Source: a virus
Reading direction: 5' to 3' (one strand)
Length of the DNA: 27,890 nucleotides
Virus record (IMG/VR): IMGVR_UViG_3300006033_001287
Span: 1-27,890 of that record
Shown: piece after piece, positions 3,116 to 27,890 of the stretch
Layout of the letters: each line of letters opens with the position of its first letter
Position numbering within the stretch: the stretch's first letter is position 1
Translations under genes and position numbers: made by a program
Notes under the pieces: model-generated
Databases searched by the model: none
The model's input: the letters and a program-made list of their open reading frames with translations, nothing else
What the model was told of the DNA's origin: nothing

Positions 3116-3755
3116 ACAGGTGGTGACAAAGGCGGAATTCGCAAGAATTCTGGGCGTGGGCCGCAGTGCCGTCGCCCATCACCTGCCCAAGCTGTCGCGT
3201 GAGGCCAAGCCGTTCGTCAACGGCAAGGAGATGATCGACGTTGCCCGCGCCAAGGCCGAGCTGAACCAGACTACCGACATGGTGCAGCGGTCGGTCAATG
3301 GCCAGATGGATTTGTCGCCCGCGGGGCCGACGGATGGTGCGGCCCCGGCGCCGGCCCCGGTGCTGCCGATTGGCGGGGTTGATGCCGAATACAAAGCGGA
3401 ACGCCTGCGTAAAATTCAGCGCGAGAATGCCGAGGGTGATCTGGCCCTGGCGGAGCGCGCCGGGACCCTGACCCCGGCCGACCGTGCGCGCACGGCGTTC
3501 GCCCGCGCCATGGGTGATGTGCTTCAGGCATTCGATGCGGCAATTCCCGATTGGGCGGCGCGGATCGCCGGCGCGGTGCCGGGCGCGGATGTTCGCACCG
3601 TGACGCTGGAACTGCGGGCTGGCCTGCGTGAGACGCGCGCCCGGCTGGCCAAGGTGCAGGCGGCACGGGCGGATGGCCTGCCGCAGCTGTTCGAGGTGGA
3701 GATTGCGGGGCAGGGCGCGGATGACGATCACCCGATGCCGGCGGCGGCGGAGTAG
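3105..3755 (+). CDS. terS: Terminase small subunit (gpNu1-like)
   Basis: A 216-residue protein with an N-terminal helix-turn-helix at about residues 6-30 (VVTKAEFARILGVGRSAVAHH), as in lambda gpNu1, which recognises the packaging site and recruits the large subunit. The middle (about 55-85) is Pro/Ala-rich and probably a linker. A helical segment rich in charged residues follows (EYKAERLRKIQRENAEGDLA, about 94-113), typical of oligomerisation regions in this family. Three bases separate it from the large subunit gene, a standard terS-terL pair. The TGAAC repeats immediately upstream and inside the start could be its binding sites. The last residues are acidic and Pro/Ala-rich. Confidence 0.85.
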   Translation: MNVQQVVTKAEFARILGVGRSAVAHHLPKLSREAKPFVNGKEMIDVARAKAELNQTTDMVQRSVNGQMDLSPAGPTDGAAPAPAPVLPIGGVDAEYKAERLRKIQRENAEGDLALAERAGTLTPADRARTAFARAMGDVLQAFDAAIPDWAARIAGAVPGADVRTVTLELRAGLRETRARLAKVQAARADGLPQLFEVEIAGQGADDDHPMPAAAE

Positions 3756-3758
3756 ACC

Positions 3759-5714
3759 ATGGGCATGATGCTGGCCAACCCTGAGCGGATCGTGGCGGAA
3801 GCCCTGGCCGCCGCGCTGACCCCACCCCCGCCGTTGGACCTGAACCGCTGGGCGGAAGAAAACGTGGTGTTTGGGAGGGAGTCTCCCCGTCCGGGGCCGT
3901 ATACAACGGATGCGTATCCCTGGAACCGCAGGATCCTGGAAGTGCTGCAGCCGGATCACCCCGCGCGCGAGGTGGCGCTGCGCGGATCGGCGCAGTTCGG
4001 CAAGACGGTGGTGGCTCTGGTGTTCACCTGCGGAACGGCAGCGGTCGAGGGCGGATATCTGCTGTACACCCATCCGCAGGAAGACAACGCCAAGCGGTGG
4101 GCAAAGACGAAGCTGCGCCCGATGTTGCGCCAATCCACAGCGTTGCGGAGCGTCTTTGGCGAGGTTGACGACAATTCGCTGTCCTACATCGCGCGACGCG
4201 ACGGGCAGGGCGCGATCCAGATTTCGGGCGCCCGGTCGGAATCCAGCCTGTCGATGATTTCGGTGTCGGCCCAGGTCCAGGACGATCTGGCCAAATGGGA
4301 GGATAACAACGCCGGCGATCCGGAAATGCAGGCGGATAGCCGGTCGGATGGGTTCCCATTCGCAAAGAAGTTCAAGGTTTCCACCCCGATGGTGGCGCCG
4401 GGCTGTCGCATCACGCGTGCATTTTTGAAGGGAAGCCAAGAACACTGGCATGTGCCCTGCCCGCATTGCGGACACCACCAGCCGCTGACCTGGGACAATT
4501 TCCTGGACAATCTGCGCGAGGAAAACCCCGATGCGGCGTGCTTCAGTTGCACGGGACCTGACTGCGGGTGTCTGATCGAGAACCATCATGTGATGGCGAT
4601 CCGCCTGAAGGGAAGCTGGGTGGCGCATAATCCGTCCGCCCCCACCGATTGCGTGTCGTTTCATTTCTGGCGCGTCTACACCGGTGTGTTCACGCTGGCC
4701 CAGATCGCGCGCAAATGGCTGGAGGTGAAGGGCGACCCGGAATCCGAACGGGTGTTCTTCAACGACTGGCTGGGCCTGCCTTATGAGGTGGCGGGTACCG
4801 CACCGGCCTGGGAAGGGCTGCGTGACCGGGCGGATGAATCCGGCCGCCGGCGCGGCATCATCCCGGCAGGGTATCCGCTGCTGACGATCGGCGTCGACGT
4901 GCAGGGCGGGGAGACGGACCCGCGCCTGGAATGCCAGATCGTGGCCTGGGGTCCGGAACTGCGCCGCGCCGTGGTGGATTATGTCGTGATACCCGGTTGG
5001 ATCGGGGACGAGAAAATCCGGTCCGCGCTGACCACCTTCCTGGCCCGCAAATGGCGGAATGAGGCGGGCAATGAGATCGAGGCCGACATGCTGGCCATCG
5101 ACGCGAACGCTTATACCGATGAGGTGGAGGATTGGGTGCGGCTACATCCCAGGTCGCGCGTGATCGCGGTGCGCGGATCGAACCGTGACACCGCCCCGCC
5201 AATTGAACCGGTTGCCTATGAGCGCAACAAGAAGGGCAAGAAAAAGCGGCTGCAGGGCCGCTGGTACAATGTCGGCGTGTCGGGCATGCGGGCTGCGTTC
5301 TATCGCAACCTGACAAAAACCGACCCGCAGGAACGCGGCTATATCGACCTGCCGCGCGGCATGGGTGACCAGTTCTACAGGCAGGCGACCGCCCTGCGCC
5401 GTGTGCGCATCCACGCCAAAGGCAAGCGCGGCGTGACGGATGGCATCGACCGCTATTCCTGGGAATTGCCTTCGGGAGAGCGCAAGGAAGCCCTGGATAC
5501 GGGCCTGTATGCCGAGGCGGCCGCTATCCGCCAGGGTTGGCGGGAACGCCAGATGGATGAGGTGTTCTGGGAGGGGCTGATCGCCGAACGCGAGAAGCCC
5601 CGGCCGGGCAGCGCTCAGCTGGATTTCGAGGATTTGACCCGGCCCGGCCCGGTTCCGCAAACCGCACCGGCATCCAAGCCGACGAAGGGCGACCGGGCCA
5701 ACCGGTTGGCCTGA
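3759..5714 (+). CDS. terL: Terminase large subunit, GpA family
   Basis: A 651-residue packaging motor and nuclease. The Walker A-type motif GSAQFGKT is at residues 76-83, in the position and variant form expected of lambda gpA-like terminases. An acidic VQDDLAKW segment near 173-180 is the likely Walker B region. Cysteine pairs CPHC (234-237), CFSC (261-264) and CGC (269-271) suggest a zinc-binding insert. The C-terminal nuclease domain begins at TIGVDVQ (D380), with further acidic residues at LAID (D448), DRYSWE (564-569) and EALD (580). Length and order match the family (lambda gpA is 641 residues). GpA enzymes usually cut at cos sites, so cohesive ends are likely, but I cannot locate the site. 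The ribosome site is GGAG just before the ATG. Confidence 0.95.
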   Translation: MGMMLANPERIVAEALAAALTPPPPLDLNRWAEENVVFGRESPRPGPYTTDAYPWNRRILEVLQPDHPAREVALRGSAQFGKTVVALVFTCGTAAVEGGYLLYTHPQEDNAKRWAKTKLRPMLRQSTALRSVFGEVDDNSLSYIARRDGQGAIQISGARSESSLSMISVSAQVQDDLAKWEDNNAGDPEMQADSRSDGFPFAKKFKVSTPMVAPGCRITRAFLKGSQEHWHVPCPHCGHHQPLTWDNFLDNLREENPDAACFSCTGPDCGCLIENHHVMAIRLKGSWVAHNPSAPTDCVSFHFWRVYTGVFTLAQIARKWLEVKGDPESERVFFNDWLGLPYEVAGTAPAWEGLRDRADESGRRRGIIPAGYPLLTIGVDVQGGETDPRLECQIVAWGPELRRAVVDYVVIPGWIGDEKIRSALTTFLARKWRNEAGNEIEADMLAIDANAYTDEVEDWVRLHPRSRVIAVRGSNRDTAPPIEPVAYERNKKGKKKRLQGRWYNVGVSGMRAAFYRNLTKTDPQERGYIDLPRGMGDQFYRQATALRRVRIHAKGKRGVTDGIDRYSWELPSGERKEALDTGLYAEAAAIRQGWRERQMDEVFWEGLIAEREKPRPGSAQLDFEDLTRPGPVPQTAPASKPTKGDRANRLA

Positions 5715-25511: not shown

Positions 25512-25671
25512 ACTGCTGACCTGTCCGGATATCCCGCAGGAGCCGTTGCGGGACGCAGCGGGCAATATCGCGCAATCCGCTATTGCCGAGTACCTCGCGC
25601 TGGTGCATCGCGCCTGGGCTGATTGTCACGGCCGGTTGGTTGCGGTGCGGGACTGGGTGGCGGGGGATTAG
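25387..25671 (+). CDS. Rz1: Outer membrane spanin lipoprotein (Rz1-like)
   Basis: A 94-residue lipoprotein. The signal peptide MRMMRLLPLCCATLLMGC ends in a lipobox (LMGC, Cys18), so it should be lipidated and sorted to the outer membrane. A Pro/Ala-rich segment follows (AASAPPAPTVV), typical of o-spanins, then an unusual C-terminal part (residues 45-94) with two cysteines. It overlaps the Rz-like gene by 125 bases in a different frame and continues 160 bases beyond it. The GGAGGA site at 25375-25380 lies inside the Rz gene. Its end overlaps the convergent minus-strand gene by four bases. Confidence 0.88.
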   Translation: MRMMRLLPLCCATLLMGCAASAPPAPTVVTRVEVVRIAPPGELLTCPDIPQEPLRDAAGNIAQSAIAEYLALVHRAWADCHGRLVAVRDWVAGD

Positions 25672-26009
25672 TGTGGGGAATACCCGTTTATCCTGGACAA
25701 TTGGTCGGCACTCAGATCGGTGCAAAGCGCCAGTACGTCACCGCGATCTATTGTGACGGCCCAAACAGTTCGAAATGCGACACGGCGGGCTTCCGACGGT
25801 ATGCCGTCAATCATATCTCGCACCTCAATCACACCGCGCTTTGCGATCTGTTCTGCCGATAGATTGTGCTGCAACTGGCCGATCAGGCGCATACTGCCAT
25901 TATCGAGGTTTCGATAGACGGGAATAGTGTGCATGGTGTTTAGGCCCTCCGCATCCTCGGCCGTTGCCGCTTCGATTGCTGCCAGTCCGGTGCATGTAAT
26001 GCGGGCCAT
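25668..26009 (-). CDS. Hypothetical protein at the end of the minus-strand operon
   Basis: A 113-residue protein I do not recognise. It shows a mixed alpha/beta composition without membrane segments: a strand pair around MHTIPVYRNLDNGSMRLIGQ, a helix NLSAEQIAKRGVIEVRDMIDG, then RRVAFRTVWAVTID and LALCTDLSADQLSRINGY. It has its own strong promoter and operator (26054-26089), so it can be expressed apart from the genes upstream of it. GGGAG lies about nine bases before the ATG. Its 3' end overlaps the spanin gene tail to tail by four bases. It could be a lysogeny or early gene; nothing specific supports a function. Confidence 0.6.
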   Translation of the reverse strand: MARITCTGLAAIEAATAEDAEGLNTMHTIPVYRNLDNGSMRLIGQLQHNLSAEQIAKRGVIEVRDMIDGIPSEARRVAFRTVWAVTIDRGDVLALCTDLSADQLSRINGYSPH

Positions 26010-26053
26010 GATCTCGACTCCCTGTTTTGGGCGGCGCCATCGCCACCCCTTGT

Positions 26054-26089
26054 GTGCCTAAATATAGGCACGATCTGCGAATGTGTCAA
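26054..26089 (-). promoter_or_regulatory. Near-consensus promoter with palindromic operator
   Basis: On the minus strand, TTGACA (26084-26089) is separated by 17 bases from TATATT (26061-26066): a perfect -35 and a five-of-six -10 box. An 18-bp inverted repeat, GTGCCTA-4-TAGGCAC (26054-26071), covers the -10. The -35 overlaps the last codons of the upstream helix-turn-helix gene. It drives the gene ending at 25668, with a leader of about 45 bases. Confidence 0.8.
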
Positions 26090-26373
26090 CCGGCTTTCTT
26101 TGCCTGTTGATGATTATTTTCGTCCTTTAGCCCCGCCTCCATCTCTGACGCGATCTGATTGAGGGTCTGTGCCCTGGCGCGACACAGGGCCGCCAGATCG
26201 GCCCGCGCGCCATCTGGTGGCGTGCGCTCCCCGCTCGCCCAATAGCGCACGCTGCGCGGCGCTACGCCCAGGGCCTCGGACAATGGCGTCTGCCAGGATG
26301 GGCCATAGATCGCCTCCCCGACGCGGCGCATCCATTCCCGGTTGCGGTGCATATCGTCATCAAACATTGCCAC
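26086..26373 (-). CDS. Helix-turn-helix DNA-binding protein (XRE/Cro-like)
   Basis: A 95-residue protein. The segment PLSEALGVAPRSVRYWASGERTPPDG (about 30-55) is a helix-turn-helix of the XRE or related type; the rest is helical (ADLAALCRARAQTLNQIASEM) with a basic tail. Small proteins with the 'W..pLa.aLGV..rtVr.WasGe' pattern are common in alphaproteobacterial prophages. It may bind the palindrome that begins 15 bases below its own stop codon. The start is taken as GTG at 26373 (GAGGAG eight bases upstream); the ATG two codons further in is the alternative. The upstream gene overlaps it by 14 bases. Confidence 0.75.
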   Translation of the reverse strand: MAMFDDDMHRNREWMRRVGEAIYGPSWQTPLSEALGVAPRSVRYWASGERTPPDGARADLAALCRARAQTLNQIASEMEAGLKDENNHQQAKKAG

Positions 26374-26746
26374 GGTTGTCTCTCCTCGGTGTGGTGTCTA
26401 TCGTCAGCCTGTCCGGTAGCGCCGTCAGGCTGTGCAGTGGTATCCATCGTCCTGGTTCCTGGCCGTCTGTGTCTGCGACCGCGATGATGGGGCGCCCGTC
26501 CTGCGTGCCATGATCCAGGACCGTCATATTTACAATTGCGGCGAACGGCAGGAGATCGAGCATCATCCTCGCCCCTATGGGGATGGCGACCGCAACGGGC
26601 ACGCGCCGGGATATGCCCATAAAATGCCATGCCCCCGTCTCCGGATGCGGCACCACCAGCGGCAGTTGACGGTGACCGTCATCCCCTTCCGGAAAATCAT
26701 CGGGCTCCATTCCCAGCGACAGCAGACGGTCATATAGCGAGATCAC
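26360..26746 (-). CDS. Hypothetical protein, minus-strand operon
   Basis: A 128-residue protein of unknown function. It is Pro-rich and beta-like, with DGHRQLPLVVPHPETGAWHFMGISRRVPVAVAIPIGARMMLDLLPFAAIVNMTVLDHG forming the conserved-looking core, and a VADTDGQEPGRWIPL segment near the end. No membrane segment or catalytic motif is evident. I take GTG at 26746 as start because AGGGG lies about ten bases upstream and the gene then begins three bases after the preceding stop; the ATG at 26710 (residue 13) is possible. It overlaps the helix-turn-helix gene by 14 bases, so the two are probably translationally coupled. Confidence 0.6.
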   Translation of the reverse strand: MISLYDRLLSLGMEPDDFPEGDDGHRQLPLVVPHPETGAWHFMGISRRVPVAVAIPIGARMMLDLLPFAAIVNMTVLDHGTQDGRPIIAVADTDGQEPGRWIPLHSLTALPDRLTIDTTPRRDNRGNV

Positions 26747-26749
26747 GTG

Positions 26750-27382
26750 TTACACCCCTGTCAATTTGATCAATGCCCGCCGCAGGGCGATGCGATAGCG
26801 TGGCTGGATAATCCATTCCCGGGCGCCCCTGTCCCATCGTGCGGTCGGAATAGCTCGTATCGCGTCGCGCAAATCGGCGCGAAAGGGGGATCGTATCGAA
26901 ACCGTGCCGTCGCCCCGGGTCTGTATTGTTATCGCGTCTATCCTGGGCCACTCCAGGTCGCGCGCACGTTCAGCAGCCTCGCGACTTTCCTGGATCAGGC
27001 TGTGTAGCAGATCAAATTCGGTATAGGGCAGGCGGAATGCCCCGTTGACCCATTGTGCGCCGATCCGTTTCAGGCGCGGCACATAGGGTTTCGGGCAGGA
27101 TATTTCCCAATATCCGTCGCGTGCGGCGGTAGTATAGGCGCCGTGCAATCCGTTGGGGATTGTGCCGCTCGCGATTCCTGCCCCGATCCGCTCCGCTGCC
27201 CCCTCCAGATATTGAGGCAGGATTTTAATTCGTTTGATCGAAATCGTCCAGATTGCCCGCCCGCGATGGGTGGCGCCAGCGCGGCGCGCTTCGCGGTGAA
27301 TCAGGGGGGTGTTGCTGTGGTGGAGGATTTTCACCACAGCCCCCTCTTTCCCATCCAGGTCGATTACGCGGATCGTGTCCAT
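26750..27382 (-). CDS. Protein with two HARP-like motifs, unknown function
   Basis: A 210-residue protein. Two segments resemble each other and the HARP motif of SMARCAL1-type annealing helicases: residues about 98-130 (KPYVPRLKRIGAQWVNGAF, then LLHSLI) and 165-204 (SPFRADLRDAIRAIPTARWD, then REWIIQ and RRALI). In the HARP family the pattern is an L..aI..lp.r.wd...k.W.. core that binds branched or single-stranded DNA. A weaker possible third copy lies near 25-58. No helicase motifs are present. It lies one base from the preceding gene and three bases from the next start, so it is part of one operon. The DNA-binding role is inference. Confidence 0.6.
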   Translation of the reverse strand: MDTIRVIDLDGKEGAVVKILHHSNTPLIHREARRAGATHRGRAIWTISIKRIKILPQYLEGAAERIGAGIASGTIPNGLHGAYTTAARDGYWEISCPKPYVPRLKRIGAQWVNGAFRLPYTEFDLLHSLIQESREAAERARDLEWPRIDAITIQTRGDGTVSIRSPFRADLRDAIRAIPTARWDRGAREWIIQPRYRIALRRALIKLTGV

Positions 27383-27383
27383 C

Positions 27384-27848
27384 TCAATCGCCGAGGGGTT
27401 TCAGATCGCGGGCAGCGGCATCCACCGCCGCCAGGGCGTTCCCGAATTCCTCCAGGCTCTCGACCAGACATGCGCACCGCGCACGCGCCGACGCAACGTC
27501 GCGGATACCGAGCCACTCGATCTGACGCATGGATGCTGCCAGCTCATCCGCCACCTCGGCCAGCGCGTCCACCTCTTTCTTGATCGGCCGGCAATTGAAC
27601 GCAACAACCGGAGCCATGCTTGCAAGCCCGGTGAACCACTTCGCGCAGTTCTCGAACTGCACCTGATACAGTTTTTCTTTATCGGTGCCACGGGCAGCGA
27701 TGGTGTTTGCGAGGGCCACACCATAGGCATTGATCGCCTGGCTGGTCGTCAATCGGATCAGCTCGCACCCGCCGTCAAACCCGGTGTGCATTTTGGGGCG
27801 GATCGCTGCTTCGATCCACGTTGCGGCCTCATTCAGGGGGGTGTTCAT
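27384..27848 (-). CDS. Hypothetical helical protein, first visible gene of the minus-strand operon
   Basis: A protein of 154 residues starting at the ATG at 27848 (MNTPLNEAATWIEAAIRP), which has AAGGA eight bases upstream. The frame is open to the window edge at 27890, which also ends in an in-frame ATG, so a longer form is possible but less likely. It is mostly helical, with SQAINAYGVALANTIAARG and KKEVDALAEVADELAASMR, and carries five scattered cysteines. I do not recognise it. The promoter for the operon must lie outside the window. Confidence 0.6.
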   Translation of the reverse strand: MNTPLNEAATWIEAAIRPKMHTGFDGGCELIRLTTSQAINAYGVALANTIAARGTDKEKLYQVQFENCAKWFTGLASMAPVVAFNCRPIKKEVDALAEVADELAASMRQIEWLGIRDVASARARCACLVESLEEFGNALAAVDAAARDLKPLGD

Positions 27849-27890
27849 TGCTTTGGTCCTTTCGACCGTTCCGGGCAGCGCCAGCGCCAT

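Follow-up and report, generated by a model that had tools for sequence, protein, structure and literature searches.

We consider it likely that a small helix-turn-helix (HTH) protein encoded near the end of a phage contig works as an Aca-like repressor on an operator in front of a neighbouring 113-aa gene, that this operator marks the second promoter of a regulon, and that the leader RNA of the gene may provide further control. In the manner of Aca repressors, the small HTH protein would act as a dimer that occupies GTGCCTA-N4-TAGGCAC, covers the -10 element of a strong sigma-70 promoter and excludes RNA polymerase. On entry into a new cell, with the repressor scarce, the 113-aa gene would be strongly transcribed, and it would be shut off as the HTH protein accumulates from the upstream operon. 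Conserved hairpins in the leaders of the family, one of which often carries the Shine-Dalgarno sequence, make a second, translational control likely, possibly exerted by the same HTH protein.

The window, i.e., the whole stretch of DNA analysed, is a linear viral contig of 27,890 b from a contractile-tailed phage, in which genes for terminase, portal, head protease, head protein, sheath, tape measure and hub were recognised. Cell-wall hydrolase and spanin genes lie close to its end, and 3′ of the spanin gene, which ends at 25671, the block of minus-strand genes listed in Table 1 faces the lysis genes. Neither megablast nor a search with the baseplate protein revealed close phage relatives of the window. 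Elsewhere on the contig, an ORF at 1508-2209 (233 aa) is weakly similar to NCBIfam models of RNA polymerase sigma factors, the best E being 3e-4 and the scores falling far short of the cut-offs.

Table 1. Features of the minus-strand gene block and its control elements, with positions in the window.
Feature	Position	Strand	Basis or remark
First visible gene of HTH operon	27384..27848	-	start inferred at ATG 27848
210-aa ORF, function unassigned, HTH operon	26750..27382	-	
128-aa ORF, function unassigned, directly upstream of HTH gene in operon	26360..26746	-	
HTH protein, 95 aa, predicted repressor	26086..26373	-	PHROG 12690/3626
Controlled gene, 113 aa, no recognisable family	25668..26009	-	
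-35 element TTGACA	26084..26089	-	sequence, promoter scan; overlaps HTH stop codon
-10 element TATATT	26061..26066	-	within operator core CC[TATATT]TAGG; spacer 17 nt
Palindrome, predicted operator GTGCCTA-N4-TAGGCAC (core CCTA-N4-TAGG)	26054..26071	.	pattern search, comparison
Leader RNA hairpin GGGUGGCG-AUGG-CGCCGCCC, first hairpin of family leader	26029..26048	-	covariance model
Shine-Dalgarno AGGGAG of controlled gene	26018..26023	-	outside any hairpin loop here
Possible Shine-Dalgarno hairpin GGUC-GAAAG-GACC, truncated HTH-operon leader	27855..27867	-	

Promoter and palindrome behind the HTH gene

The sequence itself, a promoter scan and a pattern search agree on the minus-strand promoter that the sequence-only reading had pointed out, and its two boxes match the consensus at 11 of 12 letters. 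That reading had also called such a combination rare in GC-rich DNA, and the promoter is indeed the single exact occurrence of TTGACA-N15-19-TANNNT in the window (64.8% G+C). The 18-bp palindrome spans the -10 element, and the HTH ORF and the controlled ORF lie upstream and downstream of the promoter as it had described, with a gap of 76 bases between the two genes. Its placing of the whole arrangement within the end of the HTH gene is right for the -35 element, the TGA of which is the HTH stop codon, and wrong for the -10 element and the palindrome, both of which are intergenic.

On its own the palindrome is unremarkable and proves nothing, because about 1.7 perfect 7+4+7 palindromes are expected by chance in 27,890 b (27,890/4^7); by our own estimate, the chance of its coinciding with the best promoter is roughly 0.002. 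That expected number of repeats, together with the near-consensus promoter, would suit an unregulated moron promoter with a chance palindrome at its -10, a reading that we consider very unlikely given that the core and its promoter register are conserved among relatives. On the question of chance, we regard the conserved pairing of this palindrome core with an HTH family, as seen in sequence comparison, as decisive.

Operator core beside relatives of the HTH protein

The HTH protein matches PHROG 12690 at 5e-16 and PHROG 3626 at 7e-11, both without recorded function. Its relatives are found in phages of Morganella, Acidovorax, Edwardsiella, Klebsiella, Mannheimia and Dinoroseobacter, on plasmids of Magnetospirillum, Klebsiella, Acinetobacter, Paraburkholderia and Stenotrophomonas, and also in genomes and IMG/VR contigs, and they share the core GEALYGPxWQSxLARxLGVsDRTVRxWxAG. 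On phage and plasmid DNA alike, members of the family are encoded last in small accessory operons, as Aca repressors are. The true start of the window's protein may be an internal Met, since the relatives begin there. A single-sequence structure model of it (pLDDT 84) has one long terminal helix, and no Aca2 C-terminal domain is seen in it. One relative, in a proteobacterial MAG (L008:5600-6780), adjoins an integrase-like gene and a long run of repeats at regular spacing that includes a Cas2-like ORF and looks like a CRISPR array; no operator like the window's accompanies this relative.

The core CCTA-N4-TAGG occurs at 10 sites in 26 loci of HTH relatives (58,180 b) versus an average of 0.20 over 400 dinucleotide shuffles, among which the largest count was 3, and sites with at least two further flanking pairs number 9 versus 0.0075; the few loci in which the motif was first noticed are included in these counts. 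The 16 viral loci fetched later are a clean test of the core, which was present in six of them, always 268-500 b upstream and on the HTH strand, three of the six (L045, L048 and L052) having nearly identical leaders and hence not being fully independent. When 305 promoter registers were compared over the ten sites found first, the highest score, a mean of 7.2 of 12 versus 3.3 +/- 0.8 over all registers, went to the one with the -10 at CC[TANNNT]TAGG (core offset 2) and a spacer of 17, and TTG stands at the expected -35, 17 nt upstream, in 10 of 16 core sites. The site beside an HTH protein 58% identical to the window's (G321) reads CTGGTGTTCCTATACTTAGGAACACCAG. Other palindromes occupy the operator position in L011 and L050 (TCGTA...TACGA) and in L015 (TTCCGA...TCGGAA), some HTH relatives have no palindrome at that position, and a search of viral contigs with two forms of the promoter-operator pattern returned none.

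Because the same core stands beside distant homologues in the same register over the -10, the palindrome is very probably an operator bound by the adjacent HTH protein, and in this respect the sequence-only reading was sound. The palindrome could also belong to another regulator, e.g., a main phage repressor encoded off the contig, with the neighbouring HTH protein controlling something else; no immunity region is apparent on the contig, and a pattern search of the window showed no second copy of the palindrome, for which the sequence-only reading had proposed looking upstream of 27890. Such a regulator is unlikely, as it would leave unexplained why core and register recur beside one HTH family across different hosts, on phage and plasmid DNA as well as in genomes. 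The same want of an immunity region, together with the family's place at the end of small accessory operons, makes the earlier reading's reference to lysogens an assumption. Action of the inverted repeat as RNA, i.e., as a terminator or attenuator of the HTH operon, is exceedingly unlikely in our view: the read-through transcript does fold a 7-bp hairpin at the repeat, but no U tract follows it, the arms vary among relatives while the promoter register stays, and transcripts from this promoter should begin at the palindrome's edge.

If the palindrome is a DNA operator of the HTH protein, its position needs comment. The commonest layout among relatives is the operator, one to four small genes and then the HTH gene, and the window differs in that site and cargo stand behind the HTH gene. 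A Stenotrophomonas plasmid (L021) carries the site TTTCCTAATTATAGGAAA twice, once ahead of the operon and once behind the HTH gene; in G449, identical operator and leader precede both the HTH operon and a HigB-like toxin gene; and in L047 a second leader, with a different palindrome, lies behind the HTH gene. This suggests that one such HTH regulator can face more than one promoter, and by analogy with L021 and G449 the window's site would be the second promoter of a small regulon. In the majority of relatives, the site serves autoregulation of the HTH operon, so that the operon's own autoregulatory operator is predicted within about 20 bases beyond the contig end; it is expected off the contig because the first operon gene starts at 27848 and the contig ends at 27890.

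Some of these loci have further features of their own. The HigB-like toxin gene in L057 (G449, leader 1501-1541) lies beside the HTH operon and is followed by a further small ORF, perhaps its antitoxin. Next after the second leader of L047, whose palindrome is ATACACTTACAGTGTAT, come a small gene and another HTH-like ORF (L047:3274-3309 and 3612-4040). Magnetospirillum sp. XM-1 plasmid II encodes a second HTH relative, and the operon of this relative is preceded in the equivalent position, at a distance of 37 b, by a separate palindrome, TAGGGCGATTCGCCCTA (L009:10970-10986).

Leader RNA and the controlled gene

Behind the operator, many leaders of the family have an outer stem, an asymmetric internal loop and an inner stem starting with GG, the loop of which is often AUNGG, and a second hairpin holds the Shine-Dalgarno sequence in its loop in 9 of 15 leaders versus 1.2 expected from shuffles. 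The descriptor of the first hairpin is weak by itself (10 of 15 leaders versus 3.9 expected). RNAalifold on a MAFFT alignment of the leaders gave 3 pairs only, owing to misregister, and a covariance model built from seven leaders (R1) was used instead. Outside the training set, R1 matched L040 and L041 (1e-7), L047, L048, L052, L016 and L044 (0.008), and more weakly L038, L046, L050 and L011, of which L044, L038, L046, L050 and L011 are independent matches, some others being near-identical to training leaders. In loci outside the training set, the matches follow the promoter immediately and share the strand of the HTH gene. Covariation in the leader reached 0.397 versus 0.131 +/- 0.020 in shuffled alignments and at most 0.129 for slid structures, with two-sided changes at 11 of 13 base pairs, a count that is biased towards the structure, since the alignment was fitted to the model and contains training leaders and weak matches. 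Rfam gave no match to the leaders of 8 sources up to E 1.

The best R1 match in the window is the leader of the controlled gene (26013-26050; 17.4 bits, E 0.89 over 289 kb), and its hairpin was missed by the sequence-only reading. This leader has no Shine-Dalgarno hairpin. The one in the truncated leader of the HTH operon is a possible example, weak as evidence because it comes from a single leader.

Searches of viral contigs, phages and 385 genomes gave no homologue of the 113-aa product; weak Pfam and PHROG matches to DUF7463 and phrog_5017 (E 0.035) were rejected as chance, and its structure model (pLDDT 49) was not used. The codon-position G+C of its frame (0.61, 0.46 and 0.59) is compatible with a gene, weakly so. 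Among the cargo genes of relatives are those for an acetyltransferase (L005), for an LPD29 protein (L020) and for the HigB-like toxin of G449; that the controlled gene serves anti-defence or host takeover is a guess.

The controlled gene meets the spanin gene tail-to-tail, their stops overlapping at 25668-25671, so that transcription from the promoter would run antisense to the lysis genes, and a terminator scan met no minus-strand terminator-like site until 23845. Antisense transcription into the spanin and endolysin genes might be the main product, and interference would then delay lysis until the promoter is repressed. We think this improbable, given that the leader has a Shine-Dalgarno sequence followed by an open frame of 113 codons and that the promoters of relatives stand in front of various small genes that are not near lysis genes.

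Comparison with Aca systems and wider meaning

We tentatively raise the possibility, which we rate below an even chance, that a widespread and previously undescribed HTH repressor family outside Pfam's Aca2 runs accessory regulons of phages and plasmids at two levels, through an operator bearing the -10 and a two-hairpin leader RNA bound by the same protein, and that this module marks new counter-defence and toxin genes, the controlled gene of the window included. If so, CC[TANNNT]TAGG with TTG 17 nt upstream and a hairpin leader would be a searchable signature joining a regulator with its regulated genes, even for cargo without relatives. Furthermore, the combined DNA and RNA control that is known for Aca2 among small HTH proteins would extend to a family across phages and plasmids of several proteobacterial hosts, and one such repressor could run more than one promoter.

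In the Aca mode of control, a dimer sits on a promoter repeat, with expression on entry in the absence of repressor and subsequent shut-off (PMC9410906). An inverted repeat over the -35/-10 of a strong promoter, a feature of acr-aca operons, is present in the window, and another such feature, an operon in which the HTH gene follows the cargo, is seen in most relatives and not in the window. The operator half-site of Aca1 (Pseudomonas phage JBD30, acrIF1-aca1), TAGGCAC/GTGCCTA, has the same seven letters as the window's arms, whereas the half-sites are inverted in order (TAGGCAC-3-GTGCCTA). Aca1 and the window's protein are alike in the HTH core only (hhalign probability 69.5%, 21 columns), and no such leader hairpins were found in the Aca1 system. 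On Magnetospirillum sp. XM-1 plasmid II, the repeat TAGGCACAATGTGCCTA before the operon of an HTH relative (L006:1982-1998) equals an Aca1 operator repeat of JBD30 (L035) in every letter.

Aca2 (Pectobacterium phage ZF40, acrIF8-aca2; PMC8434428) is a small dimer-type HTH protein, as the window's repressor is predicted to be; its recognition region VSxRSxxYWxSG resembles VAPRSVRYWASG of the window's HTH, and in both systems the inverted repeat overlaps the core promoter. The gene order of the Aca2 system differs from the window's, and its half-site is GTTCGC versus CCTA in the window's family. The published Aca2 probe (PMC9410881) folds a hairpin with the loop AUUGG, a loop also present in the family locus L043, and the probe has no match in the phage collection. 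When the profile of the HTH family was compared with solved structures, Aca2 came first (E 1.5e-4 to 3e-4), and the top Foldseek matches of the HTH model are Aca2 as well, weakly (TM 0.63 to 7vjq, E 0.2; best E 0.13). With 14.1 bits (E 0.052), the HTH protein scores below the Pfam gathering score of PF08965 Aca2_YdiL (23.8), and we therefore claim that it works like Aca2, not that it is Aca2. For the phage proteins of PHROG 12690/3626 that match the window's HTH, no function is recorded there, and an operator and a leader RNA are described here. Birkholz et al. reportedly found in 2024 that Aca2 binds both DNA and RNA, and RNA control is therefore plausible for the switch proposed here.
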